NCBI GenBank assembly: GCA_903834825.1
Contig: CAILKQ010000180.1
Location: 1-35,289 of the forward strand
DNA length: 35,289 nt
Reading direction: 5' to 3'
Origin: an uncultured bacterium
GTDB lineage: Bacteria; Bacteroidota; Bacteroidia; Chitinophagales; Chitinophagaceae
The notes under the pieces were generated by a model. It was given only the letters and a program-made list of their open reading frames with translations. It was not told the DNA's origin and ran no database searches. Every line of letters begins with the position of its first letter. The first letter of the stretch is position 1. The translations under genes were made by a program, and so were the position numbers. Positions 2,956-27,852 of the stretch are shown in pieces.

Positions 2956-2991
2956 CATTTGATTGTGCGCGCAGGAAAGCAGGAATTTGAC

Positions 2992-2999
2992 TATCTTTA
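2992..2999 (+). promoter_or_regulatory. Candidate -7 element for the propeller-cupredoxin gene
   Basis: TATCTTTA matches TAnnTTTG at seven of eight positions and lies 23 bases upstream of the ATG at 3023. I see no well-spaced -33 TTG, so this is a weak call. Confidence 0.3.
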
Positions 3000-3022
3000 A
3001 GTCAACAAAATTCCTGTTTCCC

Positions 3023-10706: not shown

Positions 10707-11126
10707 ATGGAATACAACAAACTCATATCGGTAACAGGATTTTCAGGACTTTTTGAACTCGTAACCAGCAAGACTGACGGTGCTGTTGTCCGTTCGCTGG
10801 AAGACAATACAACCAAATTTGTTTCAAGCAGGGTACACCAGTTCTCTCACCTGGAATCCATTGAAGTGTATACCACTGATGAGAATGTAAACCTTGCGGA
10901 TATATTCAAGGCAATGGACGCATCGGCAGAAGCGCTTCCTTCCGAAAAAGACAACAAGGCCGTAAAAAGCTATTTTGAAAAAGTATTCCCCTCCATGGAT
11001 TTCGAAAGGGTGTACAGCAGCGACATGAAAAAAATGGTCCGCTGGTTTGGTGTCATCAAACAACAGAACATTGAAATCGTCCTCCCCGAAATGGATGAGG
11101 AAGAGGAAGAAGGCAACGAGGGTTAA
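10707..11126 (+). CDS. DUF5606 family protein
   Basis: 139 residues. The N-terminus MEYNKLISVTGFSGLFEL and the following block (GAVVRSLEDNTTKFVSSR; SHLESIEVYTTDENVNL) are characteristic of DUF5606, a conserved Bacteroidota family of unknown function. The C-terminus is acidic (EMDEEEEEGNEG). No signal peptide, membrane segment or catalytic motif is visible. I chose ATG 10707 over GTG 10701 because the family begins with MEYNK. It precedes the M3 peptidase by 22 bases, so the two are probably co-transcribed. Confidence 0.88.
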   Translation: MEYNKLISVTGFSGLFELVTSKTDGAVVRSLEDNTTKFVSSRVHQFSHLESIEVYTTDENVNLADIFKAMDASAEALPSEKDNKAVKSYFEKVFPSMDFERVYSSDMKKMVRWFGVIKQQNIEIVLPEMDEEEEEGNEG

Positions 11127-11148
11127 TATCCTTCCAAAAACATTTACC

Positions 11149-12867
11149 ATGCCATACAGCGCCGATATTCAGAAACTGAAGCACAGTTTCCTGCCCGAGC
11201 ATTTCAGCCTTACCGACTGGGCTACGCTTGAACCCTATTTCATTCAACTCCAAAACAAGGAAATCAACTCAGGCGAGGACCTTGAACAGTGGCTCAAAGA
11301 CATGAGCGAAATGGAAGCATTCATCAGTGAAGACGCCTGCTGGAGGCAAGTGCGCATGACCTGTGATACAGAAAACAAAACACTGGAAGAGGCTTTCAAT
11401 TTCTTCTTCATGGAGATCCAGCCGAAGATCCAGCCCTATGCTGATATCCTCAACAAAAAGCTGGTTGACTGCCCCTTTACAAAAGAGCTTGACCAGGAAA
11501 AATATTTCACCTACCTCCGCTCTGTCAAAAAAAGCATTGATCTTTTCCGCGAAGCCAATATCCCATTACAGGCTGAAGCAGCCGTATTGCAACAACAATA
11601 TGGCAGCATCGCCGGCAAGATGATGATTGAACAGGATGGACAGGAATATACACTGCAACAGGCAGGAAAATTTCTTGAAAGCGAAGACAGGCAGATCCGT
11701 GAAACAGTGTACAAGAAAATTGCGGAAAGAAGGCTGGTTGACAAAGAACCACTGAACGAATTGTTCAGCAAACTGGTTGCCCTCAGGCACCAGGTTGCCC
11801 TCAACGCTGGCTTCAGCAATTACCGGGATTACAAATTTTCGGAGATGGGTCGTTTCGATTATACGCCTGCGTCCTGCTTTCAGTTTCATGAGGCCGTCAA
11901 AAAAGAAGTAGTCCCCCTGGTCAACCAGATATACCAAGAACAACAACAAAGACTGGGCCTGGACAACATGCGCCCTTGGGATACAGAAGCTGAGCCCGCG
12001 GGTATTGAGCCGCTGCGCCCCTTTACAGATGGCCGCGACCTGCTTGATAAATCCATCAAATGCCTGGACGCACTAAATCCTTTTTTTGGCGACTGCCTCA
12101 GAAAAATGGATACACTCAATCACCTTGACCTTGACAGCAGAAAAGGCAAGGCCCCAGGAGGATACAACATGCCGTTGGCAGAAAGTGGTGCACCCTTCAT
12201 CTTCATGAATGCGGCCTCCCAGATGTCTGACCTCACCACCATGGTGCACGAAGGTGGTCATGCCATCCATTCATTCCTGGCGCATGAACTTGAGCTTACA
12301 GGCTTTAAGGAATACCCAACGGAAATGGCCGAAGTAGCCAGCATGTCGATGGAACTCTTCACCATGGACCATTGGGATGTTTTCTTCGACAATGAGGAGG
12401 AGATGAAAAGAGCCAAGCGCCACCAGCTCGAAAGGGTGATCACGATTTTCCCCTGGATTGCTACCATCGACAAATTCCAGCACTGGGTCTATGAAAACCC
12501 AACCCATACCATTGAGGAAAGGAAAGAAAACTGGCTGAGGATTTTGAATGAGTTTGCCACCAACGCCATCGATTACAATGGGCTCGAGGCCTTCAGGTCT
12601 TACAACTGGCAGCGACAACTTCACCTGTTTGAAGTGCCTTTCTATTATATTGAATACGGAATTGCCCAACTCGGTGCCATTGGCATGTGGAAGCAGTACA
12701 GGGATAACCCAGAAAAGGGCCTCGCAAATTACATGAAGGGATTGAGCCTGGGCGGAACCAAGACGCTTCCAGAACTGTATGCGGCGGCCGGAATTGATTT
12801 CGACTTCTCTCCTGAAAAGATCAGCGAACTGATGATTTTCGTCAAAAACGAATTGGAAAAACTTTAA
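11149..12867 (+). CDS. pepF: M3 family oligoendopeptidase
   Basis: 572 residues. The zinc-binding motif is HEGGH (H367, E368, H371 in MVHEGGHAIHSF), followed by the third-ligand region TEMAEVASMSMELF, as in PepF-type M3B peptidases. It should hydrolyse oligopeptides of about 7-17 residues in the cytosol. There is no signal peptide. The start at ATG 11149 is preferred over in-frame codons from 11047, which lie inside the preceding DUF5606 gene. Length matches M3B enzymes of Bacteroidota. The symbol is a family-level assignment. Confidence 0.93.
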   Translation: MPYSADIQKLKHSFLPEHFSLTDWATLEPYFIQLQNKEINSGEDLEQWLKDMSEMEAFISEDACWRQVRMTCDTENKTLEEAFNFFFMEIQPKIQPYADILNKKLVDCPFTKELDQEKYFTYLRSVKKSIDLFREANIPLQAEAAVLQQQYGSIAGKMMIEQDGQEYTLQQAGKFLESEDRQIRETVYKKIAERRLVDKEPLNELFSKLVALRHQVALNAGFSNYRDYKFSEMGRFDYTPASCFQFHEAVKKEVVPLVNQIYQEQQQRLGLDNMRPWDTEAEPAGIEPLRPFTDGRDLLDKSIKCLDALNPFFGDCLRKMDTLNHLDLDSRKGKAPGGYNMPLAESGAPFIFMNAASQMSDLTTMVHEGGHAIHSFLAHELELTGFKEYPTEMAEVASMSMELFTMDHWDVFFDNEEEMKRAKRHQLERVITIFPWIATIDKFQHWVYENPTHTIEERKENWLRILNEFATNAIDYNGLEAFRSYNWQRQLHLFEVPFYYIEYGIAQLGAIGMWKQYRDNPEKGLANYMKGLSLGGTKTLPELYAAAGIDFDFSPEKISELMIFVKNELEKL

Positions 12868-14570: not shown

Positions 14571-15461
14571 ATGACATCAAGAAGGGGTTTCGTTCAGCAA
14601 ATGGCATGGGTTGCCGCGGGTTCGTTTTTTATCAACGATGCGCTTGCGATCGAGGGTGTAAAAGATAAAAAAATTGGGGTTCAGCTCTATACCGTTCGGG
14701 ATGACATGGCAATAGACCCCAAGGGAACCCTCAAGCAAATTGCCGCCATGGGATTTGGTGAAGTGGAGAACTTCGGATACAATGGCAAATTCTTTGGGAT
14801 GGAAGCCTCCGAATACAAAAAGGTATTGGATGAATATGGTCTCGTTGCGCCTTCTGGCCATTATCTCTATGGCAATTTCGGCAACAAGCAAAACCCTGGA
14901 ACAGTTTTGTTTGGATGGGACAAAGCAGTGGCCGATGCCAAAGCCATTGGTCAAACCTATATGGCGATTGCCTTTCTGATGCCAGAAGAAAGAACCTCTA
15001 TAGCAGCTTATAAAAAAATTGCTGCAGACCTGAACAAGGCTGGTGCCATTTGTAAAAAAGCGGGCATTCAGCTCTGCTACCACAACCATGATTTTGAATT
15101 CCAGGAATTGGATGGACAAATTCCTTTTGACATCCTGGCCAACGAAACCGACCCTGGCCTGGTAAAATTCGAACTGGATCTTTTCTGGGTATCGAAAGCG
15201 GGAAAGGATCCCATTGATTTATTTAAACAATACAAGGGAAGGGTTGCCCTCTGGCATGTCAAAGACATGGACAATACCCCCAACAAGAACTTTACCGAAG
15301 TGGGAAGTGGGGTCATTGATTATGCAAGGATTTTCAAACACGCCAAAACCGCTGGAATGAAACATTTCTTTGTTGAGCAGGATGTTTGCCCCGGTGCGCC
15401 TTTGAACAGCATTCGAAAGAGCATCGCTTATGTACAATCAACCCTCCTGAAAAACCTGTAA
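14571..15461 (+). CDS. Sugar phosphate isomerase/epimerase-family TIM barrel, Tat-exported
   Basis: 296 residues. The N-terminus has a twin-arginine signal (TSRRGFVQQ followed by a short hydrophobic segment and INDALAI), predicting folded export to the periplasm. The remainder is an AP_endonuc_2/xylose-isomerase-like barrel with likely metal ligands in CYHNHDFEF, FELDLFWV, LWHVKDMD and FFVEQD. Family members isomerise or epimerise free sugars or sugar acids; some act on keto-sugars. Substrate is unknown, but the surrounding DUF1080/ThuA genes point to oxidised glycosides. It is followed after two bases by a TMEM220-like gene (coupled). A promoter-like TTG-N22-TAAATTGT lies at 14518-14550. Confidence 0.85.
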   Translation: MTSRRGFVQQMAWVAAGSFFINDALAIEGVKDKKIGVQLYTVRDDMAIDPKGTLKQIAAMGFGEVENFGYNGKFFGMEASEYKKVLDEYGLVAPSGHYLYGNFGNKQNPGTVLFGWDKAVADAKAIGQTYMAIAFLMPEERTSIAAYKKIAADLNKAGAICKKAGIQLCYHNHDFEFQELDGQIPFDILANETDPGLVKFELDLFWVSKAGKDPIDLFKQYKGRVALWHVKDMDNTPNKNFTEVGSGVIDYARIFKHAKTAGMKHFFVEQDVCPGAPLNSIRKSIAYVQSTLLKNL

Positions 15462-15884: not shown

Positions 15885-18800
15885 TTATTTTTTAGGAACA
15901 AGCTTCATCGAAATGATGGCCAACCTGTTTGTCTCCTTGGCATCCAACCGCTCCAATTTCATGTAGAGTTTTCTGTCGCCCGACACCACATTTTGCAACT
16001 GCAATTCTTTTGTGCCAAACATGGTGCTTGAATGGTTTTCCAATTTGAACGATGCAATCGCAGGCCCGTTGGGAGCATCCTGGTGCAAGCTGATCTGGTA
16101 GCCCTTCATCAGTTGTGCAGGAATTCCGTATGCTAATTCAATCGTCCCAATGTTTTCCAAATCAATGTTGGAAAACTCCATCCATCCGTTGTTTCCCTGG
16201 CTGATGTTCAGGAATGCAGCACGTTGTTTGTTCCAGTCCTTGGTCTCAACCCTAAGGTTGCCGCTGTTGCTTGGTATATTCACCAATGCACTTTTGAGTG
16301 ACACAGAACCCACCGCACTCAGTGGCCTGATGCCTGCGCCGCCCCTGTCTGTATACGTGGCGGTAATCAACATCAGGTTTCCGGAACCCATGTCATTTTC
16401 TGACGGTGTAATGGTTCCATTGGAAGGCAAGGAGGGGGCATCTTTCTTGTTCAGGCTCAATACCCAATCAACAATCATTCCTGCCTCTTCGGGTTTTAGG
16501 TCTGGATGGGCGGCCATGGCCACTTCTCCCCAAACACCGCTTCCGCCATTGATGATTTTATTGGTGAGGTAGGACCTGGCTTTGGTATCCCCTTCATATT
16601 TCTCTGCCACCATTTTATACGCTGGTCCTACAGATTTCTCCGCTTCTTTGTGACAGGCCTTGCAATCCAGGGTTGCTGCCAGGTTCTTCCCTTCCATGAT
16701 GGCGGTCATCACCTGGTGGCCAACCACCTGTGCCTTGTCTGGTCCGTTCACGTAATCAACTTTTACATAAATCGATTTTTTGTCAACGCTTCCTTTTTCT
16801 GTAGTGCCATCTTCTTTGTCCTTCACATTTACAGTATAGGGTACTGGCTGGCCAGGAAAATAAAATTTGTTGCCCGCATCGAGTTTTACACTCACCTCAG
16901 GTGCTTCGTTTCCTGCATAAACCTTTACCACTTCGCTCCTGGTAACACCGCCCTTGGAATCTTTCACTTCAACATAGATGGCATACTCGCCAGCTTTGGT
17001 TAAAGTGAAAGAGGTATTGGGCGTGGTTACTGGCGGACGAACAGCAGCACCAAAATGCCAAACATAACTCAGGGCATCATTGTCAGCATCGGTTGATCCA
17101 ACCGCATCCACCTTAAGCGTAAATGGAATGCTGCCTGAAAGTTTAGGCACATTGATTTTTGCCTTGGGAGCCCTGTTGCCTCCATTATAATCGATTCTTG
17201 AAAGGGCGGCATCCGCATTCTTGCTGAACCATCCTGAGCCATACTCGAGCACATAGAACCTGCCATCAGGACCCACCTCAACATCCATGGCGCTTTTGAA
17301 CTTGGTAGATTCCATGAAGGGCTCCATTTGCTGGTAATTGCCTTCGGCATCCATGCTCACCATTTTCATCCATCCCCTGATCCATTCGTAGAACAAGAGT
17401 TTTCCGTTGAAATAATCTGGATACCTTGTGGCCTTGGGATAGAACTCTGTGTAATAAACCGGTCCCGCCATTGCATTTCTTCCCCCCGTGCCCACTTCTG
17501 GAAACTCAGTTGAGGCCGCATACGGATACCAAATAAAAGCAGGGCTTACCGGAGGCAGTTGCTGCAAACCGGAATTGTTTTTGGAGAGGTTCATGGGTTT
17601 TTTAGGGTCGAAGAATTCACCCACTTCACCTGTTTCATAGTTGAACTGGCGGTATGGATAGTTGTTGCCAATGAACAGCGGATAACCAAAATAACCTGCC
17701 TTGCGGGCCTGGTTCAACTCATCATATCCCCTTGATCCTTTTTCATCTGGTTTGTCATTTCCTGCATCAGGACCAACATCACCCCAATACAAAAACCCCG
17801 TTTTTCTGTCAACCGATATCCTGTAGGGATTTCTGGTACCCATGGCATAAATTTCAGGCCTTGTTTTGGGTGTTCCCGGAGGAAAAAGATTTCCTTCAGG
17901 AATAGAATAAGATGCGTCAGGATTGACCTTGATGCGCAATACCTTTCCCCTCAAATCATTGGTATTGCTTGATCCTCTTCTTCCATCAAATTGCTCAAAT
18001 CCTTCCCTGTTGTCTATTGCGCCGAACCCTTCCAGGGTATATTTTGAGTTGGGCTGGTTGAACGGTGTTGTATTGTCGCCAGTAGAAATAAACAGGCTTC
18101 CATCGGGTCCGAATGTCAATGAACCCCCCGTATGGCAACAGATTTTTCTTTGAGAAGCAACATCCAAGACCTTTTTTTCGCTTTTAAGGTCAAGCTTGCC
18201 ATCCTTGAAAACAAAACGCGACAAGCGGTTCGCCGCAGTATCATTGGTGGCATAAAACATGTAGATATAGTTGTTCTTCGCAAAGTCAGGATCTGCGGTG
18301 ATGCCCAGCAGTCCCTCTTCTGCATTGATGCCCTGTACACCAGACTTGGAATAAAGATCAAATTTGGCAACCTGCGTTACTTTTTTTGTGGTATTGCTGT
18401 AGTGCATTACCTCCCCTTTTCTTTGTGTAATAAGGATATCAAAATTAGGAAGGATGGCCATTTCAGTTGGCTCATCAAAAACACCACCGGCCAGTACATT
18501 CTTGGTAAAGCGGTCTTCATCTGGAACCAGCATTGACTTAGTCTTGCTATAATCCTTCTTTGCATTATTGCCGATGGCGTACTTGATGCCACCCAGGATA
18601 TGCTTCAGAAAAAGGGGATCTGCAAAGGATTCATTGGTATGACCAAACTCAGTATAGAAGGCCCTTCCGCCGTCATAGTCGTGGTACCATGCCATGGGAT
18701 GGCTGTCTCCATTTTGACCACCTTCATAGGATTTCTCATCGATGCTGATGAGAATATTCACTTCTTTACCAGGTACTACTTTAAAGTTGTACCACTCATC

Positions 18801-19277
18801 ATAGCGTTCCCAAATTTCGGGAAGATGGGATGTGCTGATATGGGTCCTGTTGTGCACAATGAGTTTTGCCTTCTGTTGTCTGGGGTGGTTCTTAAAATAG
18901 GCCCCAGCCAGTTTTCCATACCAGGGCCAATTGTATTCACAATCAGTGGCCGCATGAATACCCATGTATCCTCCACCCGATTGGATGAACCTTTCAAAAA
19001 TAGCCTGCTGTTTTGGATTGAGCGCATCACCGGTTGTGTTCAGAAAAACAACTGCCTGGTATTTTTTGAGGTTCTCTTCCTTGAATGCTTCTGCATCTTC
19101 AGTAGTATCAACTGCAAATCCATTTTCTTTTCCCAATTGCATGATGGCTGTTTTTCCAACACCGATGGATCCATGCCTGAAGCCTGCAGTCTTTGAAAAA
19201 ACCAATACCCTTGATTGTGCATTGGCAACAAAGCTCAAACAGCCATTCAACAACAATAACAATAAGACTCTTCTCAT
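15885..19277 (-). CDS. Secreted ThuA / glucose-sorbosone dehydrogenase-like / PKD / cytochrome c fusion
   Basis: 1130 residues from ATG 19277. A signal peptide (MRRVLLLLLLNGCLSFVANAQ) is followed by: ThuA domain (~22-240, VLVFSKTAGFRHGSI, GGGYMGIHAATDC); PQQ glucose/sorbosone dehydrogenase-type propeller (~260-700, EEGLLGITADPDF, HTGGSLTFGPDGSLFIS, GTRNPYRISVD); PKD domain (~703-790); an Ig-like segment; class I cytochrome c (~850-945, heme site CKACH at C872, C875, H876, probable axial M921 in VAMAAHP); and a C-terminal CBM6-like domain (~965-1130). ThuA domains occur in trehalose/keto-sugar use. The layout suggests periplasmic sugar oxidation with electrons handed intramolecularly to heme c (inference). 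Terminators flank it, so it is probably monocistronic. Such fusions are recurrent in Bacteroidota, but the physiological substrate is not established to my knowledge. Confidence 0.9.
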   Translation of the reverse strand: MRRVLLLLLLNGCLSFVANAQSRVLVFSKTAGFRHGSIGVGKTAIMQLGKENGFAVDTTEDAEAFKEENLKKYQAVVFLNTTGDALNPKQQAIFERFIQSGGGYMGIHAATDCEYNWPWYGKLAGAYFKNHPRQQKAKLIVHNRTHISTSHLPEIWERYDEWYNFKVVPGKEVNILISIDEKSYEGGQNGDSHPMAWYHDYDGGRAFYTEFGHTNESFADPLFLKHILGGIKYAIGNNAKKDYSKTKSMLVPDEDRFTKNVLAGGVFDEPTEMAILPNFDILITQRKGEVMHYSNTTKKVTQVAKFDLYSKSGVQGINAEEGLLGITADPDFAKNNYIYMFYATNDTAANRLSRFVFKDGKLDLKSEKKVLDVASQRKICCHTGGSLTFGPDGSLFISTGDNTTPFNQPNSKYTLEGFGAIDNREGFEQFDGRRGSSNTNDLRGKVLRIKVNPDASYSIPEGNLFPPGTPKTRPEIYAMGTRNPYRISVDRKTGFLYWGDVGPDAGNDKPDEKGSRGYDELNQARKAGYFGYPLFIGNNYPYRQFNYETGEVGEFFDPKKPMNLSKNNSGLQQLPPVSPAFIWYPYAASTEFPEVGTGGRNAMAGPVYYTEFYPKATRYPDYFNGKLLFYEWIRGWMKMVSMDAEGNYQQMEPFMESTKFKSAMDVEVGPDGRFYVLEYGSGWFSKNADAALSRIDYNGGNRAPKAKINVPKLSGSIPFTLKVDAVGSTDADNDALSYVWHFGAAVRPPVTTPNTSFTLTKAGEYAIYVEVKDSKGGVTRSEVVKVYAGNEAPEVSVKLDAGNKFYFPGQPVPYTVNVKDKEDGTTEKGSVDKKSIYVKVDYVNGPDKAQVVGHQVMTAIMEGKNLAATLDCKACHKEAEKSVGPAYKMVAEKYEGDTKARSYLTNKIINGGSGVWGEVAMAAHPDLKPEEAGMIVDWVLSLNKKDAPSLPSNGTITPSENDMGSGNLMLITATYTDRGGAGIRPLSAVGSVSLKSALVNIPSNSGNLRVETKDWNKQRAAFLNISQGNNGWMEFSNIDLENIGTIELAYGIPAQLMKGYQISLHQDAPNGPAIASFKLENHSSTMFGTKELQLQNVVSGDRKLYMKLERLDAKETNRLAIISMKLVPKK

Positions 19278-19335
19278 AATGATCAAGTTATAAAGTATAA
19301 ATGAGGTATAAATTTAACGAATAATCGGGCGAAAT

Positions 19336-19363
19336 AAAAAACGCCGCATGACTTATGCGGCGT
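19336..19363 (-). terminator. Terminator of the DUF1080 operon
   Basis: ACGCCGCAT (19341-19349) and ATGCGGCGT (19355-19363) form a perfect 9-bp stem with a five-base loop. Read on the minus strand it is followed by TTTTTATTT, so it ends the transcript of the four-gene operon before the ThuA-fusion gene. Confidence 0.85.
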
Positions 19364-19388
19364 TTAGGATAAATTAATTGGTGCGATG

Positions 19389-20105
19389 TTACAATTGCTT
19401 GATCTTGATATTCCTGAACCATACAAGATTGCCATGGTCCTGCAAGGAAATTTTTCCTTTCCTGTACTTGGCAAAACCAGGCCAGTTCTTGAATTTGGAC
19501 CCTGCAACCAGTTGGTTGAATTGGTCATCGCCAACGGTTGTCGTTACAACAATTTCACCATTGAGCTTCAACGTCAGGGCGCCGTTCATATAAATAACTT
19601 CAGCGTGGTTCCACTCCATGGCGGGTTTTGCCGTTTCCCTGTTGCACTTGATCAGGTCATACAAGTCACCAGCCCTATGCCTTGGGTTTTTGGCATCCCC
19701 GGCTTTTTCATTGTCCAACACCTGCATTTCCATACCGGTAGCGTAGGAGGACTTGAATTTAGGTTCTTCGTGCACACCAAAGATGATACCACTGTTGCCG
19801 CCTTCTGAAATCTTCCACTCCAAACTGAGGTGATAATTTTCGTATTCAAGGTCGGTTGTAAGGTCTCCGCCCCTTTTAACACCGGGTTTCTTATCCTTGT
19901 CCACGTCGCAATAGAGCACACCATCTTCTACTTTCCACAATTCTCCGGTTGCATCATTGTTGTAAATATGCCACCCGTTCTTGGTCTTTCCGTCAAAAAG
20001 CTTTTTCCAGCCTTTTTTGACATTGTTCTCCGGCTTGGGTCCGTCAGTAGTTGGTGTTGCTGAAAGCAACAAGGCAGCAAAGGCAATCGTTAAAAGGGAT
20101 TTCAT
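19389..20105 (-). CDS. DUF1080 protein (3-keto-disaccharide hydrolase family)
   Basis: 238 residues. A Sec signal peptide (MKSLLTIAFAALLLSA) precedes a complete DUF1080 domain: WKKLFDGKTKNGWHIYN at the start, GNSGIIFGVHEE and GMEMQVLDNE in the middle, HRAGDLYDLI, and the closing LQDHGNLVWFRNIKI. Pfam names this family 3-keto-disaccharide hydrolase, and characterised members act on 3-keto-glycosides by hydrolysis or lyase chemistry. It should act in the periplasm on C3-oxidised glycosides. Last gene of a minus-strand operon with Gfo/Idh/MocA oxidoreductase, TIM-barrel isomerase and cytochrome c; the cytochrome stop is five bases upstream. Its substrate is inferred from family and context only. 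Confidence 0.92.
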   Translation of the reverse strand: MKSLLTIAFAALLLSATPTTDGPKPENNVKKGWKKLFDGKTKNGWHIYNNDATGELWKVEDGVLYCDVDKDKKPGVKRGGDLTTDLEYENYHLSLEWKISEGGNSGIIFGVHEEPKFKSSYATGMEMQVLDNEKAGDAKNPRHRAGDLYDLIKCNRETAKPAMEWNHAEVIYMNGALTLKLNGEIVVTTTVGDDQFNQLVAGSKFKNWPGFAKYRKGKISLQDHGNLVWFRNIKIKQL

Positions 20106-20110
20106 TGTTG

Positions 20111-20551
20111 TTATTTTTTCATTGATAAGATATACGCTACCATTGCTGAGGCATCATCAACACTCAGGTTGGGATGTCCTGCCATTGGGATTTCACCCCA
20201 ATTGCCCTGACCACCCTGAAGTACTTTTTCTGCCAGCATTTTTACATTTTTAGCATTGTTCTCATATTTATTGGCCACATCCTGGTAAGCTGGTCCAATC
20301 AATTTTTGATCGTCCTTGTGACAGGTACGACAATCAGAACCTGCGATGAGGGCCTTGCCATCTTTTTTTGCTACGGCCTTGGTCTCTTCTTTTGCTGGCT
20401 CCTCTGCTTTTGTTGTTGCTTCTTCCTTTACGGGAGCAGCAGTCTCTTCTGTTGTTGCATTGCTGATGGGCTTTGTTTCCGTTGTTTCTTCTCCACCGCC
20501 ACAGGCATAAAGCCCTGCTGCGATCACCATTGTGAACAGTACCTTTTTCAT
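20111..20551 (-). CDS. Cytochrome c lipoprotein (class I, c551/c552-like)
   Basis: 146 residues. The signal ends in a lipobox (GLYAC, C17), so it is predicted to be membrane-anchored by lipid. A long Glu/Thr/Ala/Lys-rich tether (~20-65) leads to a cytochrome c domain with heme motif CRTCH and probable axial Met in IPMAGHP. By eye the domain is about 40% identical to the cytochrome domain of the 1130-residue fusion protein (shared G-x-W-G-E-x-x-M-A-x-H-P). It should shuttle electrons in the periplasm, plausibly from a sugar dehydrogenase. ATG 20551 gives the normal lipoprotein signal; an earlier in-frame start at 20575 would add eight residues before it. Third gene of the operon. Confidence 0.92.
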   Translation of the reverse strand: MKKVLFTMVIAAGLYACGGGEETTETKPISNATTEETAAPVKEEATTKAEEPAKEETKAVAKKDGKALIAGSDCRTCHKDDQKLIGPAYQDVANKYENNAKNVKMLAEKVLQGGQGNWGEIPMAGHPNLSVDDASAMVAYILSMKK

Positions 20552-20583
20552 TGTTTGTTGTTGTTTTGTTATCATATTTATTA

Positions 20584-21636
20584 TCAGATGCCTAAAATTT
20601 TCTTGTTGAATTCCTCGTTGCTGCCGGTTCCTGCAAAATCATCAAATGCTTTTTCTGTAACCCTGATGATCTTGTCTTTGATGAATACCGCGCCTTCTTT
20701 TGCTCCATCCTCTGGATGTTTGATGGCGCATTCCCACTCCATCACGGCCCATCCGCTGTAATCGTATGCAGTAAGTTTGCTGAAGATAGCTGAAAAATCA
20801 ACCTGTCCGTCGCCCAAAGAACGGAACCTTCCTGCACGGTCAATCCAATTCTGGTAACCGCCATATACACCTTGCTTGCCCGAGGGATTGAATTCAGCAT
20901 CCTTTACATGGAACATTTTGATGCGCTCATGGTAATGATCGATATAACTGAGGTAATCAAGGCACTGGAGTACGAAATGGCTTGGATCATACAGCAAGCA
21001 AGCCCTTTTGTGGTTGTTGGTTTTTTCCAGGAACATTTCATAGGAAATACCATCATGCAGGTCTTCTCCGGGATGGATTTCGTAACAGAGGTCAACCCCG
21101 TTCTCATCAAATACATCCAGGATGGGCGTCCATCTTTTGGCCAACTCGGTGAATCCTGTTTCTACCAATCCTGCGGGCCTTTGTGGCCAGGGATAAACCG
21201 TATGCCAGAGCAGGGCACCACTAAAAGTAGCATGGGCATTCAATCCCAGGTTGGCAGATGCCTTGGCTGCGTACTTGAGCTGCTCTACCGCCCAGGCTGT
21301 TCTGGCCTTGCTGTTGCCGCGTACGTTTTCCGGCGCAAACCCATCAAACAATTCATCATAGGCAGGATGAACGGCCACCAACTGACCCTGCAGATGGGTT
21401 GACAATTCTGTGATCTGCAAGCCCGCTGCCTCCACAATTCCTTTCACTTCATCGGCATAGGTTTTGCTTTCGGCAGCTTTCTGCAAATCGATACAGCGTG
21501 GATCCCAGGTGGGAAGTTGAACACCCACAAAACCCAAATCAGCCGCCCATTTGCAGATGGTCGAGAGGTCATTGAAGGGGGCCGCATCTCCCATGAACTG
21601 GGCAAGGAATATTCCGGGACCTTTTATCGTTTTCAT
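20584..21636 (-). CDS. Sugar phosphate isomerase/epimerase-family TIM barrel, cytosolic
   Basis: 350 residues with no signal peptide, so cytosolic, unlike the two Tat-exported relatives in this window. The TIM-barrel metal site is visible in CYEIHPGED, LLYDPSHFVLQ, MFHVKDAEF and VMEWEC, supplying Glu, Asp, His and Glu. FLAQFMGD and PFNDLSTICKWAADLGFVGVQ are typical of this longer subgroup, which often lies beside Gfo/Idh/MocA oxidoreductases. It probably isomerises a keto-sugar or its reduction product. Second gene of the operon, 11 bases after the oxidoreductase stop. Confidence 0.88.
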   Translation of the reverse strand: MKTIKGPGIFLAQFMGDAAPFNDLSTICKWAADLGFVGVQLPTWDPRCIDLQKAAESKTYADEVKGIVEAAGLQITELSTHLQGQLVAVHPAYDELFDGFAPENVRGNSKARTAWAVEQLKYAAKASANLGLNAHATFSGALLWHTVYPWPQRPAGLVETGFTELAKRWTPILDVFDENGVDLCYEIHPGEDLHDGISYEMFLEKTNNHKRACLLYDPSHFVLQCLDYLSYIDHYHERIKMFHVKDAEFNPSGKQGVYGGYQNWIDRAGRFRSLGDGQVDFSAIFSKLTAYDYSGWAVMEWECAIKHPEDGAKEGAVFIKDKIIRVTEKAFDDFAGTGSNEEFNKKILGI

Positions 21637-21647
21637 TCGTTTTTAAT

Positions 21648-22814
21648 TTAAACCGTGTGTGGAGTCCATTTTGTTGATGACTGGGAAGAAAGCACCACGT
21701 TGTCAATAAAGGCCATGCCGCGGATGCCATCCTCAACCCCAGGGAAATCAAGCATTTCGGCCGTTGGTGTTGTTCCATCAATCCGTGTGCCAAGGGTCAG
21801 AGAAAAATTCCTGTAAATGTTGGCAAAAGCCTCCAGATAACCCTCCGGATGTCCGCCCGGGGTCCTGGAATTATGGACTGCGAAAGAGGAAAGCCTGTCG
21901 GCATAGTTGCCGCCAGCCCTATAGATCTGAGTGGGCTGGTCCAGCCATTTGACCAGCATGGTATTGGGCTCGTGTTGCGCCCATTCGATGCCGCCTTTCT
22001 CACCATATACCCTGATCTTGAGGGCGTTTTCTTCTCCTGCAGCTACCTGAGAAGCCATCAATACGCCAGCGCTTCCGTTTTCAAACTTGAGCAAGACATT
22101 GCCATCATCATCCAGCATCCTGCCTTCCACCATTACATTGAGGTCTGCGCAGATCTGGGTGATCTTCAGGCCTGTAATATATTCTGCCAAATGTGCCGCA
22201 TGTGTTCCAATGTCTCCCATGCACCCGCTTTTACCGCTGCGCTTGGGGTCTGTACGCCATGCCGCCTGGGCATTGCCTTCGCGTTCTGTGAGTTTGCTGA
22301 GCCATCCCTGTGGATATTCCACCCATACCTTGCGGATGTTGCCCAGCTTGCCTTCCTTCACCATTTGCCTGGCCTGCTTTACCAGCGGATAACCCGAATA
22401 AGTATGGGTAAGGCAAAGCATGAGACCCGTTGCCTCCTGGATGCGTTTCAACTCCAGGGCCTCGTCCAACGTAAAGGCAATGGGTTTTTCAATAACCACA
22501 TGAAAACCATGCTCCATGGCCATTTTGGCTGGAGCAAAATGGGCGAAATTGGGTGTAACAATGGTCAAAAAATCCATGCGCTTGTCTTCCGGCAACTGGC
22601 TTTCTTTGGTGATCATCTCCTCAAACGTGAGGTAGATCCTGTCTTCGGCCAAAAAAAGCGACTTGCCTGAATCTTTGGCAATGTCTGGATTGATGCTCAG
22701 TGCACCACAGACCAATTCGATGAGTCCGTCCATTCCAGCTGCATGGCGGTGAATGGCTCCGATGAAAGCATCCTTGCCGCCGCCAACCATACCCATTCTT
22801 AGTTTTCTGTTCAT
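21648..22814 (-). CDS. Gfo/Idh/MocA family oxidoreductase
   Basis: 388 residues, cytosolic. The NAD(P)-binding Rossmann fold begins MGMVGGGKDAFIGAIHRH. The family motif E-K-P is present (E109-P111 in VVIEKPIAF), with K110 as the likely catalytic lysine and GDIGTH supplying D201 and H205. A long C-terminal alpha/beta domain follows. In keto-glycoside routes such enzymes oxidise sugars at C3 or reduce 3-keto-sugars back to sugars; direction is not readable here. First gene of the operon with isomerase, cytochrome c and DUF1080. No Tat or Sec signal is visible. Confidence 0.93.
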   Translation of the reverse strand: MNRKLRMGMVGGGKDAFIGAIHRHAAGMDGLIELVCGALSINPDIAKDSGKSLFLAEDRIYLTFEEMITKESQLPEDKRMDFLTIVTPNFAHFAPAKMAMEHGFHVVIEKPIAFTLDEALELKRIQEATGLMLCLTHTYSGYPLVKQARQMVKEGKLGNIRKVWVEYPQGWLSKLTEREGNAQAAWRTDPKRSGKSGCMGDIGTHAAHLAEYITGLKITQICADLNVMVEGRMLDDDGNVLLKFENGSAGVLMASQVAAGEENALKIRVYGEKGGIEWAQHEPNTMLVKWLDQPTQIYRAGGNYADRLSSFAVHNSRTPGGHPEGYLEAFANIYRNFSLTLGTRIDGTTPTAEMLDFPGVEDGIRGMAFIDNVVLSSQSSTKWTPHTV

Positions 22815-22941
22815 GTTGGTTGATTGAAAAATGTCAATAAAAATGAGGTTTAAAAATAATCAATTTAGCGCTACAATCCTTCAATATTTGATGTTGTTTA
22901 AAAGAAATCATTTCACGGCTTTTTGAGCATTGTGCTAAAAT

Positions 22942-22967
22942 AAAAAAGAGGGGGCAGTTGCCCCCTC
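22942..22967 (-). terminator. Terminator after the MFS transporter gene
   Basis: GAGGGGGC (22948-22955) and GCCCCCTC (22960-22967) form an 8-bp G+C-rich stem with a four-base loop. On the minus strand it is followed by six T, then ATTTT. It ends the MFS transcript and separates it from the Gfo/Idh operon. The rest of 22815-22991 is A+T-rich and should hold the operon promoter, but I see no clear element. Confidence 0.9.
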
Positions 22968-22991
22968 CTTAAAAATAATAGTACGATATGA

Positions 22992-24200
22992 TTATGCTTT
23001 TTGCGTCTTTCTGGAGTAAATGTACAGACCGACGAAAGCAACAATAAGAATGGCAGGAAAAAGGAGCATGTTGGACAGGGTAGACTGACCTGCAGCAAGA
23101 TCAGCGGCATCGCCCACCAATCCACCGGCTTCAGCCGCCGTCTTATTTTTTTGGATCCATCCACCAATCACGGGCTGGAACATGGAAGAAGAAAACATCC
23201 CGATACCACCCATGATGGAAAGACCGAGGGCGCCCGTTTGTGGAAGCGTCTCAGCTATAAAGCCAAGCATGTTGGGCCAGAAATAACAGATGCCCAATGC
23301 ATAAACAACCGCTGCAACATACAGCGCTGCCCCACTCATGGTGCTCAACATGTAAATACCAATCACGGCAAATACAGCAGAGCCCAACAAAACACCAACG
23401 GTATTCAATTTATGGATCAATGGACCGGCAAAGTACCTGCCCACAGCCATCAGACCGGTCACCAGGGCCAGGATCAGCATCGGACTTGCGCCTGCTTTGG
23501 CGAGGATGGGTCCGACCCACTGTTGTGGACCAAATTCAGAAATAGCGGTAAGGGCCATACATGCGGCCATGAACAAATACAAGGGGTTCAACATGGCCTT
23601 GAAATTGGCAACCGGTGAACTTGCTTCAGCCTTGGGCTGAGGAAATATTTGGCCCCAGAACATGATGGCATAGATAACAGTAGGAACAAGGATGACCCAG
23701 ATCTGTGCCTGCCAGGGAAGGCTTGCGTCAGTCATGAATTTTGAAATCAAGGAACCCAATACGATTCCACCCGGGAACCACATGTGAAAACGGTTCATCT
23801 TTTTGCTGAATTCATTGCCAGTATAGGCATCAGCAATCATTGGATTACAAGCCGCTTCTGTACATCCATTGCCAATGCCGATCAACAAGGTCGATACCAA
23901 CAATACATTGTAGCTGCTGGCATAGATGGTGGTCAAGATACCAATGGCATGTGCAACGAATGCGACCTGCATGATCAATTTAGGACCAATTTTGGCGTAA
24001 AAAATTCCTCCGAGGATCATGGAAATCGGAAAACCAAGGAACCACATCGAGTTGATGGTGCCAAGCTGAACGGTGTCCAGGCTCAATTCAGTCCCAAGCT
24101 GGGTGAGGATTCCCGCCCTGATACTGAAAGAGAAGGCTGTTGTAATGAGCGCAAAACAGCTCGCCAAAAAGAGGCGGTTTGCATTGATTGGCTGGGTCAT
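22992..24200 (-). CDS. MFS transporter, FHS/fucose-permease-like
   Basis: 402 residues with about 12 transmembrane helices and no large soluble domain. The half-barrel signature in helix 4-5 (GIGNGCTEAACNPMIADAY; NRFHMWFPGGIVLGSLISKF) matches the sugar:H+ symporter FHS family, which carries fucose, glucose or related sugars. It likely imports the monosaccharide or keto-sugar produced outside the membrane. It is transcribed separately from the downstream Gfo/Idh operon (terminator at 22942-22967) and diverges from the TIM-barrel gene at 24386. The substrate is unknown. Confidence 0.88.
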   Translation of the reverse strand: MTQPINANRLFLASCFALITTAFSFSIRAGILTQLGTELSLDTVQLGTINSMWFLGFPISMILGGIFYAKIGPKLIMQVAFVAHAIGILTTIYASSYNVLLVSTLLIGIGNGCTEAACNPMIADAYTGNEFSKKMNRFHMWFPGGIVLGSLISKFMTDASLPWQAQIWVILVPTVIYAIMFWGQIFPQPKAEASSPVANFKAMLNPLYLFMAACMALTAISEFGPQQWVGPILAKAGASPMLILALVTGLMAVGRYFAGPLIHKLNTVGVLLGSAVFAVIGIYMLSTMSGAALYVAAVVYALGICYFWPNMLGFIAETLPQTGALGLSIMGGIGMFSSSMFQPVIGGWIQKNKTAAEAGGLVGDAADLAAGQSTLSNMLLFPAILIVAFVGLYIYSRKTQKA

Positions 24201-24322
24201 TGTAAATTAGATTTGGTTAAGGGGTTTATAAAAATTCCACTTCAAGCTAATTAATCTTACAGACCTTGCCAAGTTTAGGGTTGTTTTTTTTGAGCGTTGT
24301 CGGTTTTTACTGCTGCACTTCA

Positions 24323-24334
24323 TTGGTTAACCAA
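24323..24334. promoter_or_regulatory. 12-bp perfect palindrome in divergent promoter region
   Basis: TTGGTTAACCAA lies between the divergent MFS and TIM-barrel genes, 51 bases upstream of the ATG at 24386. It overlaps a possible -33 TTG of a TTG-N24-TATCGTTG arrangement (24323-24357), so it could be a repressor site. No regulator gene is adjacent, and a 12-bp palindrome can arise by chance. Confidence 0.3.
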
Positions 24335-24385
24335 GATTTCATTGATCTGTATCGTTGTATCTGAATAGTTTCATTATTTTTAGGG

Positions 24386-25279
24386 ATGAGTACTCCAAAC
24401 CGAAGGTCTGCCATCAAGCATCTTATGCTGGGATCCATCGCAGCCAGCACCATCAGTGCTGAATCTTTTGGCAATCCAATCACAAAAACTGAAACAATGG
24501 ACAGTGCAAAGAAGCTGAAAGGAAACATCAACCACTCCGCCTGTCGATGGTGTTATTCAAGCATTCCGCTTGAAGAGTTCTGTCAATCTGCCAAAAAAAT
24601 TGGACTGGTAGGAATCGACCTGGTGGGTCCCAAGGATTGGGACATGCTCAAAAAATATGACCTTATTTCGACCATGTGCAATGGTGCAGAAATCAACCTC
24701 AACGATGGTTTCAACGATACAAAGTTCCACGAAAAACTCATCAAGAACTATACTGAAATGATTCCGCTGGTAGCCAAAGCAGGGTACAAAAACCTGATCT
24801 GCTTCTCCGGTCAGCGCCGCGGCAAGGATTCCGAAACGGGCCTGAACAATTGCGCTACCGGATTGAAACAAATCACTGGCATTGCAGAAAAACATGGTAT
24901 TACCCTTGTGATGGAATTGTTGAATTCCAAAATCAACCACAAAGATTACCAGTGCGACAGAAGCGACTGGGGTGTTGAGTTGTGCAAGCGGGTTGGCTCA
25001 GAAAATTTCAAACTGCTTTACGACATCTACCACATGCAAATCGATGAAGGTGATGTCATCAATACCATCAAAAAGCACCATGCCTATTTTGCCCATTATC
25101 ATACAGGAGGGGTTCCAGGAAGAAACGAAATCAATGAAACCCAGGAGCTGAATTATCCGGCCATCATGAAAGCCATTGTTGACACAGGTTACAAAGGATA
25201 TGTGGCACAGGAGTTTATTCCTACCTGGGATGATAAAATAGCTGCACTGAAACAGGGCGTGCAGATTTGTGATGTTTAG
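24386..25279 (+). CDS. Hydroxypyruvate-isomerase-like TIM barrel, Tat-exported
   Basis: 297 residues. The N-terminus has an Arg-Arg pair before a hydrophobic stretch (PNRRSAIKHLMLGSIAAS), a probable Tat signal, although the consensus Phe is replaced by Ile. The barrel contains LVMELLNSK, LLYDIYHMQID, HYHTGGVPGRNE and VAQEFIP, which match the hydroxypyruvate isomerase (Hyi) subgroup: Glu, Asp, His and Glu ligands plus the G-R-[HN]-E loop. It converts a hydroxy-keto acid or a sugar-like substrate; the export signal argues against a purely cytosolic Hyi role. It overlaps the convergent higA gene by four bases at their stops. Confidence 0.82.
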   Translation: MSTPNRRSAIKHLMLGSIAASTISAESFGNPITKTETMDSAKKLKGNINHSACRWCYSSIPLEEFCQSAKKIGLVGIDLVGPKDWDMLKKYDLISTMCNGAEINLNDGFNDTKFHEKLIKNYTEMIPLVAKAGYKNLICFSGQRRGKDSETGLNNCATGLKQITGIAEKHGITLVMELLNSKINHKDYQCDRSDWGVELCKRVGSENFKLLYDIYHMQIDEGDVINTIKKHHAYFAHYHTGGVPGRNEINETQELNYPAIMKAIVDTGYKGYVAQEFIPTWDDKIAALKQGVQICDV

Positions 25280-25632
25280 TATTGCTGCACAAGCACCTCC
25301 GTTGAAATGTTTAGTTTTTTGCTCAATGCCCGGATCATGTCAAGATTCAGCTTTCTTTTTTTGTGTAAGATTTCGCTGACCCTGCTTTTGTATCCGATGC
25401 AACCTACAAGATCGGACTGTGTATATCCCATTTGTTCCATCCTGAACTTGATTGCTTCAATTGGATCTGGGAAATCTATCTTAATTTGATCGTCTTCATA
25501 TTTTTCTATGAGGATGGACAATATTTCCAATTCATCTCCCTCAGGCGTGCCTTTTTTTGCATCAAAAAGATGCTCCAATTTTTTCAATGCCGCTCTGTAG
25601 TTTTTCTCTGATTTTATTGGGCTAATGTTCAT
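25276..25632 (-). CDS. higA: HigA-type antitoxin, XRE helix-turn-helix
   Basis: 118 residues from ATG 25632; in-frame codons further upstream lie within higB. The N-terminal half is the toxin-binding region (RAALKKLEHLFDAKKGTPEGDELE). The C-terminal half (~60-118) is an XRE helix-turn-helix (IEAIKFRMEQMGYTQSDL; SRVSEILHKKRKLNLDMI), the full-length HigA pattern of COG5499. It should neutralise HigB and repress the operon. The higB stop lies one base upstream. Its TAA overlaps the stop of the convergent TIM-barrel gene. The A+T-rich composition differs from the neighbours. Confidence 0.9.
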   Translation of the reverse strand: MNISPIKSEKNYRAALKKLEHLFDAKKGTPEGDELEILSILIEKYEDDQIKIDFPDPIEAIKFRMEQMGYTQSDLVGCIGYKSRVSEILHKKRKLNLDMIRALSKKLNISTEVLVQQY

Positions 25633-25633
25633 C

Positions 25634-25927
25634 TTATATAGTTTTGGCGTCAATTTGATCGTATTCACTATGTGTCCCCACAAACCTGATCCACATGATT
25701 TTAAATTGATAATTAATCCTTACCACTATCCTGTAATGATTCCCTTTGATATTGAAAACCACCCTTTGGTTGTCTAAAATACTTGCTGAGGGATATTTGT
25801 TTTTTATATGAACAGACGAACTCCAGGCCGTTCCCACCATTTCCTTGTGCCAGGATTTCAATTGTTGCTCTACTACAGGATGTTTCAACCAAAAATCCCT
25901 CAAAACCCGCTTGGCTATCACCCTCAT
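25634..25927 (-). CDS. higB: HigB-type mRNA interferase toxin
   Basis: 97 residues matching the HigB_toxin family (RelE superfold). Diagnostic blocks are RVVFNIKGNHYRIVVRINY, FKIMWIRFVGTHSEYD and an N-terminal helix starting RVIAKRVLRDFW. HigB toxins cut ribosome-bound mRNA. Toxin-first order with the antitoxin one base downstream is the normal HigBA arrangement. A perfect 8-3-8 palindrome 34-52 bases upstream of the start is the probable autoregulatory operator. The pair appears intact. It lies between two sugar-metabolism genes on the opposite strand, suggesting later insertion. Confidence 0.92.
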   Translation of the reverse strand: MRVIAKRVLRDFWLKHPVVEQQLKSWHKEMVGTAWSSSVHIKNKYPSASILDNQRVVFNIKGNHYRIVVRINYQFKIMWIRFVGTHSEYDQIDAKTI

Positions 25928-25960
25928 GTCTTTCTCTTTGTAAAATTAAACAAAAGTTAC

Positions 25961-25979
25961 CAAAATGGTAACCATTTTG
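25961..25979. promoter_or_regulatory. Palindromic operator candidate for higBA
   Basis: CAAAATGGTAACCATTTTG is an 8-3-8 perfect inverted repeat centred 43 bases upstream of the higB start. A second overlapping inverted repeat, GTTACC-AAAAT-GGTAAC (25956-25972), shares its core. HigA proteins bind palindromes in their own promoters, so this is the likely autoregulatory site (inference). The rest of 25980-26090 shows nothing I can name. Confidence 0.55.
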
Positions 25980-26096
25980 CAATATTTTTTCTGTTCTCTT
26001 TTTCTGATTGGAGTCCCGGGCCAGGTATCCGGCGATCATCTTCAATTATAATTCCCATTTAAAGTGCAAATAAATGATTTGAGAATTTCCTGCATT

Positions 26097-26130
26097 GTGA
26101 AAATCATCGTTTTAACCTGTGATTTTTCAC
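26097..26130. repeat. Imperfect inverted repeat upstream of the GMC oxidoreductase
   Basis: GTGAAAATCA (26097-26106) and TGATTTTTCAC (26120-26130) can pair with one bulged T across a 13-base loop. No T-run follows on the plus strand, so it is not a clear terminator. It could be an operator or RNA hairpin for the gene starting at 26182. A promoter-like TAAATTCG lies at 26152-26159. Confidence 0.25.
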
Positions 26131-26181
26131 TTTTATTAATGTGTTAAATCGTAAATTCGTAAGAAGGACAATACATTTTTT

Positions 26182-27852
26182 ATGCCCGAATCATTTGACT
26201 TTGACGCAATCGTGATTGGATCCGGCATTTCGGGTGGCTGGGCGGCCAAAGAACTCTGTGAGCGTGGGCTAAAAACCATTGTGCTGGAAAGGGGCACCAT
26301 GGTGGAACACATCAAGGATTATCCTACAGCCAACAAAAACCCCTGGGAGTTTCCGCACCGGAACAGCCTGACTGAAGAGGAAAAGAAAATATACACTGTC
26401 CAATCCCGCCATTATTCCATTGGGGAAGACAACAAACATTTTTATGTAAAGGATAATGAAAATCCATACGAGGAAAAACAGCGCTTTGATTGGGTGAGGG
26501 CTGATGTTTTTGGTGGAAGATCACTGCTCTGGGGAAGGATTTCAGTGAGATGGAGTGATGTGGATTTTGGCGCCAACCTGAAAGATGGCCATGGCGTAGA
26601 TTGGCCCATCCGTTACAAAGACATTGCGCCATGGTATGATTATGCAGAAAAATTCATCGGCGTCAGCGGGAGCAAAGAGAATTTGCCCATCCTGCCTGAC
26701 GGTATTTTTCAGCCCCCATTCGAAATGAACTGTGCAGAGAAGCATGTGAAGGAAAAGCTGGAAGGCAGGTTCCCGGGAATCAAAATGATCAACACCCGGT
26801 CAGCCAACATCACCCAACCCCTTGATGGAAGGTCCTCCTGTCAAAACAGGAACCTTTGTCACCGCGGTTGTCCATTTGGCGCCTATTTTAGCACCCAATC
26901 TTCGACACTTCCCGCGGCAGCCAAAACCGGTAACCTCACCATCCGCACAGGAGCCGTGGTCAACCGCATCCTTTACGATGAAAAAACAGGAAAGGCCTCC
27001 GGGGTTGAAGTCATCGACAGGGACACCCTCAAGACCTATGTCTATACGGCAAAAATCATCTTCCTCAATGCCTCAACGCTGGCCACTGCCTATATCCTGC
27101 TCAACTCCACGAGCAGCCGTTTTCAAAACGGCATGGGCAATGACCATGACATTGTTGGCCGTCATTTGATGGACCACCACAAAGGTTCTTATACCACTGC
27201 CGAGATTGAAGGCTTTGAGGACAGGTACACATTCGGGAAAAGGCCCACAGGGGTATATGTTCCGCGCTTCAAGAACATCGACAAACAAGAGGCCAACTTC
27301 ATCAGGGGCTATTATTACCAGGGTGCTGCATTCAGGGAAAGGGGCAACAGCAGTGATGCAATTGGTGAAGACCTTAAATCTATCGCAACCGAACCCGGAA
27401 AGTGGAAAATCAACCTCGGCTACTATGGCGAGACCCTTCCCTACGCAGAAAACCGCATCACCCTCAACAACAACATCAAGGATATTTACGGCCGGCCAGG
27501 GATGACCATCGATTGTTCCTTCAAGGAAAACGAAAAAGCTATTTTCAAGGATGCCTCCGAATCCATGAAGGCCATGTTCGAAGGGATTGGCCTGAAAAAT
27601 GTGAAACAATCCGGAACCATGTCCTTTCCCGGCAACGCCAACCACGAAATGGGCACCGCCAGGATGGGGCACGATGAAAAAACATCCGTCCTGAACAAAT
27701 GGAACCAGCTGCATGCCGTGAAAAACCTTTTTATCACCGATGGGTCCAGCATGGCCTCCAGCGCTTGCATCAATCCTTCGCTCACGTATATGGCACTTAC
27801 CGCAAGAGCGGTTGATCATGCCTTCAATGAAATGAAGAAAGGGAATATTTAA
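26182..27852 (+). CDS. GMC family FAD-dependent oxidoreductase
   Basis: 556 residues. The FAD-binding Rossmann motif is GSGISGG (13-19), with the ribose-binding E36 in VLERG. The C-terminal GMC domain has the catalytic pair H488 (ANHEMGTARMG) and N531 (CINPSLTYMALTARA). It probably oxidises a sugar hydroxyl; this size and motif set resemble the large subunit of glucoside 3-dehydrogenase and related sugar dehydrogenases that use cytochrome c. Relatives lack a signal peptide and are exported with a small Tat-bearing subunit 3. This protein also lacks a signal, but no subunit 3 gene is in the window. No neighbour on the same strand is close enough for a clear operon. Confidence 0.93.
   Translation: MPESFDFDAIVIGSGISGGWAAKELCERGLKTIVLERGTMVEHIKDYPTANKNPWEFPHRNSLTEEEKKIYTVQSRHYSIGEDNKHFYVKDNENPYEEKQRFDWVRADVFGGRSLLWGRISVRWSDVDFGANLKDGHGVDWPIRYKDIAPWYDYAEKFIGVSGSKENLPILPDGIFQPPFEMNCAEKHVKEKLEGRFPGIKMINTRSANITQPLDGRSSCQNRNLCHRGCPFGAYFSTQSSTLPAAAKTGNLTIRTGAVVNRILYDEKTGKASGVEVIDRDTLKTYVYTAKIIFLNASTLATAYILLNSTSSRFQNGMGNDHDIVGRHLMDHHKGSYTTAEIEGFEDRYTFGKRPTGVYVPRFKNIDKQEANFIRGYYYQGAAFRERGNSSDAIGEDLKSIATEPGKWKINLGYYGETLPYAENRITLNNNIKDIYGRPGMTIDCSFKENEKAIFKDASESMKAMFEGIGLKNVKQSGTMSFPGNANHEMGTARMGHDEKTSVLNKWNQLHAVKNLFITDGSSMASSACINPSLTYMALTARAVDHAFNEMKKGNI

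Follow-up and report, generated by a model that had tools for sequence, protein, structure and literature searches.

We analysed a 35,289-nucleotide stretch of DNA from an uncultured bacterium of the Chitinophagaceae (CAILKQ010000180.1; hereafter the window), listed as contig C180 in a draft genome of 205 contigs and 2.63 Mb, and found that a group of its genes very probably encodes a C3-oxidation route to breaking sugar bonds. This group, built around a four-gene unit on the minus strand (19389-22814), corresponds to clusters known from Caulobacter and Agrobacterium and is not a new system. Judged from sequence, it probably specifies a pathway for breaking down glycosides, of the Caulobacter lac or Agrobacterium GlycDH-OGE-HYD-Oxo type. 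The support consists of gene content, conservation, identity to named or characterised enzymes, the active-site residues of an OGE-like barrel, and co-occurrence across genomes; from these we infer every reaction that would take place in the window's organism, which way the transporter works, what partner takes the electrons, and that a LacC-type subunit is supplied in trans.

A four-gene unit with a predicted hydratase and reductase

The unit comprises a Gfo/Idh/MocA oxidoreductase (GFO; 21648-22814), a TIM barrel (HYD; 20584-21636), a cytochrome c lipoprotein (20111-20575), and a DUF1080 protein (19389-20105), tightly packed with intergenic gaps of 5, 8, and 11 bases. Two terminator-like hairpins on the minus strand, each with an 11-pair stem, bracket exactly these genes: one lies between GFO and an MFS transporter gene (22945-22970), and the other follows DUF1080 and closes the unit (19339-19365). 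Among the terminator-like matches in the region (23 found vs 15.5 in shuffles, sd 3.2) these two rank top, and promoter-like matches showed no excess (21 vs 21.3 in shuffles). The hairpin after the transporter gene, which suggests that this gene is a separate unit, has a counterpart in both loci from the window's genus (L064 and L065); the one after DUF1080 has a counterpart in L065, with none found in L064. A preliminary description of this DNA had proposed the operon, together with a nearby transporter, a Hyi-like barrel, and a GMC oxidoreductase; all the named genes are where it had placed them, and their families are confirmed by Pfam scores over the cut-offs.

The same description had called the TIM barrel an isomerase. 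HYD does belong to Pfam AP_endonuc_2 (127.1 bits; cut-off 31.1), and over residues 1-350 it matches PDB entry 8ro4, deposited under the name 2-hydroxy-3-keto-glucal hydratase (E 3.2e-177, 592 bits), with identity at 243 of 350 aligned positions (69.4%), a full-length homology. On this comparison HYD is likely a 2-hydroxy-3-keto-glucal hydratase and is not best called an isomerase. The outline put forward previously, in which a glycoside is oxidised at C3, cleaved, imported, and re-reduced, agrees with homology and conserved context, but its mode of cleavage had to be revised: the identity of HYD to 8ro4 makes elimination with subsequent hydration the better reading of this step.

GFO (Pfam GFO_IDH_MocA_C3, 98.2 bits; cut-off 27) is a predicted cytosolic 3-keto-glucose reductase of the Agrobacterium 'Oxo' type. 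Its closest solved chain is 3v5n (E 3.7e-105), and it is 46% identical to the hydratase-adjacent gene product of an Agrobacterium tumefaciens locus (L136) and 44% identical to that of a Caulobacter vibrioides locus (L147). Other assignments were rejected on NCBIfam scores far under their cut-offs, namely the glycoside 3-dehydrogenase families of BT2158 (28.2 vs 750) and BT2159 (21.3 vs 650) and levoglucosan dehydrogenase (104.4 vs 650). Weak NCBIfam matches to IolE and IolG could also hint at an inositol or other polyol route run by an IolE/IolG-like barrel and GFO. We consider such a route extremely improbable, as these scores too fall far short (75 vs 290 and 55.7 vs 355), HYD reaches 592 bits to 8ro4, and the partners are DUF1080 and a cytochrome. 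Neither HYD nor GFO has an evident signal peptide by the simple patterns on which all our Tat, lipobox, and hydrophobicity calls rest, in place of signal-peptide predictor output; the Tat pattern gives a false match in GFO and detects only 14 of 29 sequences of the exported barrel HyiT described below.

The cytochrome (Pfam Cytochrom_C, PF00034, 38.5 bits; cut-off 21.3) is a monohaem protein with a CRTCH motif and a lipobox, and a predicted periplasmic electron acceptor. A single CxxCH occurs in all 33 clustered short cytochrome homologues, the window's included, and the lipobox pattern in 32 of them. The DUF1080 protein (3keto-disac_hyd, PF06439) scores 164.8 bits, above the curated cut-off of 26.8, has relatives among PDB structures (8rr2, 8tda, 9fbe, and 8v31), and carries a Sec-like N-terminus, with a hydrophobic N-terminus in 38/38 members of its cluster; it is a predicted periplasmic 3-keto-glycoside lyase/hydrolase. 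The window's genome holds 13 DUF1080 matches in 11 frames, vs one HYD match. A second DUF1080 protein of the window lies at 8-1669 on the plus strand (78 bits, with a PA14 match under cut-off).

Conservation and co-occurrence in relatives

The gene order of the proposed operon is conserved. We hand-picked 40 loci of relatives (12 to 20 kb) from HYD matches on long contigs spread over genera, with L058 and L059 from one genome and the same-genus loci L064 and L065 included; co-occurrence counts here and below are raw, with shared ancestry ignored. GFO lies directly upstream of HYD in 38/40 loci, cytochrome c directly downstream in 33/40, and DUF1080 downstream on the same strand in 33/40, and all four genes stand together in 29/40. 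Within 9 kb we found a transporter in 30 loci (of the window's MFS family or a second family, MFSb), GMC in 27, a PF13618-type subunit in 24, and an OGE-like barrel in 19, with HyiT followed by GMC in 24. PF13618 is present in 20 of the 27 loci with GMC within 9 kb, and the other seven stretches end within or just past GMC genes.

Across 147 genomes of the family, HYD (E <= 1e-60) occurs in 100, mostly at 72-93% identity and as a single match in 97 of these. All 100 also carry DUF1080, while 43 genomes have neither gene, four have DUF1080 only, and none has HYD only, which suggests that DUF1080 products need hydration in this family. HYD-positive genomes hold between 1 and 21 DUF1080 domain matches, with a median of 6.5; at most 20 first-look candidates were scored in each. 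In a phylum sample of 392 genomes, DUF1080 was found in 77/78 genomes with HYD. The closest named matches come from Hymenobacter, Mucilaginibacter, and Cognataquiflexum, pointing to a host among the Bacteroidota.

An OGE-like barrel and other neighbouring genes

Outside the region covered by the preliminary description, and overlooked there, lies a gene for an OGE-like TIM barrel with a twin-arginine N-terminus (14571-15461, plus strand), by homology a predicted exported Mn-dependent 3-keto-O-glycoside beta-eliminase. It matches PDB 8bvk (AtOGE) with E 8.9e-25 and 8tct with E 8.4e-37. Residues H132/H134/D163/H189/E233 of AtOGE align with H171/H173/D203/H229/E269 of the window's protein, which are invariant in 23 sequences. 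In AtOGE, H132, D163, H189, and E233 are the metal ligands, and H134, mutated in PMC10628242, was taken as the catalytic histidine.

The GMC oxidoreductase (26182-27852, plus strand; Pfam GMC_oxred_C, 72.8 bits, cut-off 24.6) is the predicted catalytic subunit of a glycoside 3-dehydrogenase. It is 52% identical to the GMC protein of A. tumefaciens L136 and 49.6% identical over 566 columns to that of Caulobacter L147; its nearest solved chain is the fructose dehydrogenase large subunit 7w2j, and simple patterns gave no evident signal peptide. The window's genome has three GMC and two PF13618 genes. One PF13618 gene, on contig C50, has no GMC within a 10 kb stretch, and the other, on contig C111, adjoins GMC2; there, GMC2, the PF13618 subunit, and a twin-arginine Gfo/Idh protein form a second set (L095, 6386-10296). 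HyiT is followed by a tandem of three GMC genes in six relatives' loci (L044, L047, L048, L053, L054, and L060). The transporter (22992-24200, minus strand), which the preliminary description had called FHS-like and which we place by Pfam MFS_1 (88.3 bits, cut-off 33.4) and weak NCBIfam matches, is the predicted importer of the cleaved keto-sugar.

HyiT (24386-25279, plus strand) is a TIM barrel of the hydroxypyruvate isomerase or ketose 3-epimerase type with a twin-arginine N-terminus (Pfam AP_endonuc_2, 86.3 bits; cut-off 31.1). Residues R6, R7, E177, D213, H216, H239, and E276 are invariant across 29 sequences, and E177, D213, H239, and E276 presumably form the metal site of the family. A fold search with its predicted structure (mean pLDDT 85.2) ranked D-psicose 3-epimerase and 3ngf at the top; the E. 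coli 3-keto-glucoside 4-epimerase YcjR came at ranks 9-10, DgpB-C further down, and an AP-endonuclease-2-type protein of Brucella was also among the matches. This search discriminates poorly, as an E of 0.001 lets through 328 chains, with identities of 12-25% among the 50 matches listed. We rejected HyiT as an OGE, with 8bvk absent from its 20 solved-structure matches. That HyiT may be an exported epimerase of 3-keto-sugars is a guess. Between HyiT and GMC, on the minus strand, lies a HigBA pair (25276-25683 / 25634-25927) with a HigB toxin-like gene (PF09907, 101 bits) and a weakly matching helix-turn-helix partner (21 bits vs cut-off 23).

Beyond the hairpin that closes the four-gene unit, a 1133-aa protein (15885-19286, minus strand) combines ThuA, glucose/sorbosone dehydrogenase (GSDH), PKD, cytochrome c, and CBM6 regions, the last below cut-off (24.6 vs 28.9). 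It occupies the same position in both same-genus loci, and its cytochrome region resembles the lipoprotein cytochrome of the unit. An operon extending to this gene was judged unlikely given the intervening hairpin (19365-19339), but no hairpin was found there in L064; the gene is probably its own unit, and its product a possible second feeder of the pathway. A further protein (2963-5020, plus strand), whose C-terminus weakly matches NCBIfam azurin (40 bits, cut-off 105) and which also weakly matches ScyE and PVC-type haem-binding families, is possibly another electron carrier fusion.

A model of the pathway and its alternatives

Taken together, these genes suggest the following model. A periplasmic GMC flavoenzyme, relying for its maturation on a PF13618 (LacC-type) Tat subunit whose gene lies elsewhere in the genome, would oxidise the glycoside at C3 and pass its electrons to the lipoprotein cytochrome c. 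Exported DUF1080 and the OGE-like barrel would then open the 3-keto-glycoside via beta-elimination, yielding the aglycone and 2-hydroxy-3-keto-glucal, and the MFS carrier would import the latter. In the cytosol, HYD would add water to give 3-keto-glucose, and GFO with NAD(P)H would reduce this to glucose. HYD and GFO could in this way act as a single cytosolic hub, fed by many DUF1080 proteins and several dehydrogenases. We tentatively extend this to a hub-and-spoke arrangement, with HYD and GFO near-invariant, the exported cleavers expanding, and OGE-like barrels and several dehydrogenases as further spokes, in which HyiT, found next to GMC in Bacteroidota loci, might act like YcjR and convert 3-keto-galactosides and 3-keto-mannosides to the gluco form; one glucose-type hydratase and reductase could then serve all. 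Among the titles and abstract openings that searches of an open-access library brought up, none concerned such a hub pattern.

Several observations weigh against the model, beginning with the DUF1080 step. In the phylum sample, one of the 78 HYD genomes lacks DUF1080, and 83/160 DUF1080 genomes lack this HYD; the latter count shows that other lineages manage otherwise. The window's DUF1080 protein is just 26% identical to one from Caulobacter L147, and ten Pedobacter DUF1080 genes gave no lactose phenotype (PMC9007349). DUF1080 might instead hydrolyse the 3-keto-glycoside straight to the 3-keto-sugar, leaving HYD to serve the OGE-like branch alone; the 83 genomes fit this, and BT2157 has been called a 3-ketotrehalose hydrolase and CCNA_01705 proposed to hydrolyse (PMC9007349). 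We find direct hydrolysis conceivable though rather doubtful here, given that DUF1080 accompanies HYD in all 100 family HYD genomes, with four genomes having DUF1080 only, and follows it on the same strand in 33/40 loci, as expected if its product needs hydration.

Further points concern the dehydrogenase. At least one of the four genes is missing in 11/40 loci, the cytochrome in 7/40, and a genome of the window's genus (G053, 110 contigs) keeps all four genes but has GMC pieces of 32-36% identity only; GMC is not a constant partner of the unit. No PF13618 small subunit was found in the window, so none stands beside its GMC, and the HigBA pair makes co-transcription of HyiT and GMC doubtful in the window's genome. 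Among HYD loci of named genomes we scored the best 80 of 595 within the fetched flanks, some of them short, using profiles built from the window's relatives that miss divergent members such as the L147 cytochrome, and found GFO in 72, GMC in 10, DUF1080 in six, and cytochrome in three. By these counts HYD and GFO look like the core and the rest like attachments. In eight loci (L113, L114, L115, L123, L131, L142, L165, and L178, seven of them Variovorax) the stretch covered gave HYD but no match to GFO. The main partners of the four-gene unit could instead be other dehydrogenases, such as the GMC2/PF13618/Tat Gfo/Idh set on C111 or the ThuA-GSDH protein, with the window's GMC and HyiT as loose neighbours. 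Such an arrangement would suit G053, which lacks a full type-1 GMC, the HigBA pair between HyiT and GMC, the lack of a PF13618 gene beside this GMC, the existence of the C111 set, and the 62 of the best 80 HYD loci whose covered stretch matched GFO but neither GMC nor GMC2. It nonetheless seems to us somewhat unlikely, in view of the loci with GMC within 9 kb (27/40) and with HyiT then GMC (24/40). Similarly, the seven loci with no cytochrome c directly downstream of HYD, and the persistence of the unit in G053, might mean that the cytochrome carries electrons for respiration in general and is not the partner of GMC. This we regard as unlikely, since cytochrome c also follows HYD in Caulobacter L147, at the place of lacB by the description in PMC9007349. 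On balance we favour the model of elimination and hydration, with the window's GMC as the probable entry point.

Comparison with known systems

Caulobacter L147 carries a DUF1080 gene, a transporter, an OGE-like barrel, GFO, HYD, cytochrome c (11087-11446, directly after HYD), a second DUF1080 gene, GMC, and a PF13618 gene. We take LacA to be the GMC protein, LacC the PF13618 protein, and LacB, by this gene position, the cytochrome c. An article on an alternative broad-specificity pathway for glycan breakdown in bacteria reportedly also describes DUF1080 proteins, together with steps by a lyase and a hydratase. The content and order of L147 are fitting for the lac cluster of PMC9007349, with which we equate it. 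In C. crescentus this cluster comprises lacABC and DUF1080 proteins, LacB is one of three components required for lactose use, and the genes upstream of lacB, for a transporter, a pair of epimerases, and a reductase, matter for growth on lactose (PMC9007349). In that paper the role of the epimerases and reductase is a suggested one and the fate of 3-ketogalactose is left open, to which the hub-and-spoke arrangement with a HyiT epimerase, if true, would give an answer. The window likewise has GMC, cytochrome c, DUF1080, a transporter, two barrels, and a Gfo reductase. It differs in that its cytochrome is unmatched to that of L147 by the window-type profile at 1e-6, its transporter comes from another sequence cluster, the Tat-type HyiT is an extra barrel, and no PF13618 gene adjoins its GMC, as one does in L147.

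Similar clusters occur in Halomonas titanicae, Algoriphagus, and Indibacter, and LacABC-type dehydrogenases with DUF1080 have already been reported in Bacteroidetes (PMC9007349). The annotation of a Hymenobacter plasmid (L089) likewise shows one run of GMC, gluconate 2-dehydrogenase subunit 3, permease, Gfo, isomerase (HYD), c-type cytochrome, two barrels, and DUF1080. The preliminary description had suggested that this gene set, with cytochrome c inside the operon, would be a distinct version of known pathways; by comparison with the L147 and Hymenobacter sets, the gene set, cytochrome included, is not one. In a Novosphingobium locus (L092) GFO, HYD, a PF13618-type gene, and GMC were found.

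A. tumefaciens L136 has HYD, GFO, OGE, GMC, and a PF13618-type gene one after another, with a small CxxCH frame behind them. L136 HYD is 94.6% identical to 8ro4 and its OGE-like protein equals 8bvk at 154/164 compared positions. AtOGE (8BVK), the first 'sugar phosphate isomerase' of the A. tumefaciens operon, is a beta-eliminase; for the second, AtHYD, preliminary evidence suggests that it hydrates 2-hydroxy-3-keto-glucal and that the operon's Gfo enzyme reduces the product (PMC10628242). The window's enzymes are homologous to those of this GlycDH-OGE-HYD-Oxo operon, in which GlycDH, we infer, is the GMC protein, with identities of 70% for HYD, 46% for GFO, and 52% for GMC. For the eliminase barrel identity drops to 28%, the PF13618-type gene of L136 is 46% identical to one of a relative (L056), not to a window gene, and the window-type profile gave no DUF1080 match in the fetched flank of L136.

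Two further systems share parts of this chemistry. LgdA-B1-B2-C of Bacillus smithii also runs through oxidation, elimination, hydration, and reduction, with two barrel-annotated enzymes and Gfo-type dehydrogenases, but its first step on levoglucosan is NAD-dependent (PMC7676230) and the window's GFO scores 104 against the levoglucosan dehydrogenase cut-off of 650. BT2157-BT2159 of Bacteroides thetaiotaomicron pairs a DUF1080 protein (BT2157) with C3 dehydrogenases, whereas the window would use a GMC/cytochrome route and its GFO falls far under the BT_2158 and BT_2159 cut-offs.

The window's cluster is of value chiefly for the functions that can be assigned to its genes, for the eliminase missed earlier, and for the hub pattern. 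It suggests candidate reactions for genes that bear no annotation beyond sugar isomerase, the Hymenobacter record being an example, and HYD, carried by 100/147 sampled family genomes, offers a marker for this route. The comparison also links the genetics of the Caulobacter lac cluster with Agrobacterium enzymes of eliminase and hydratase roles.

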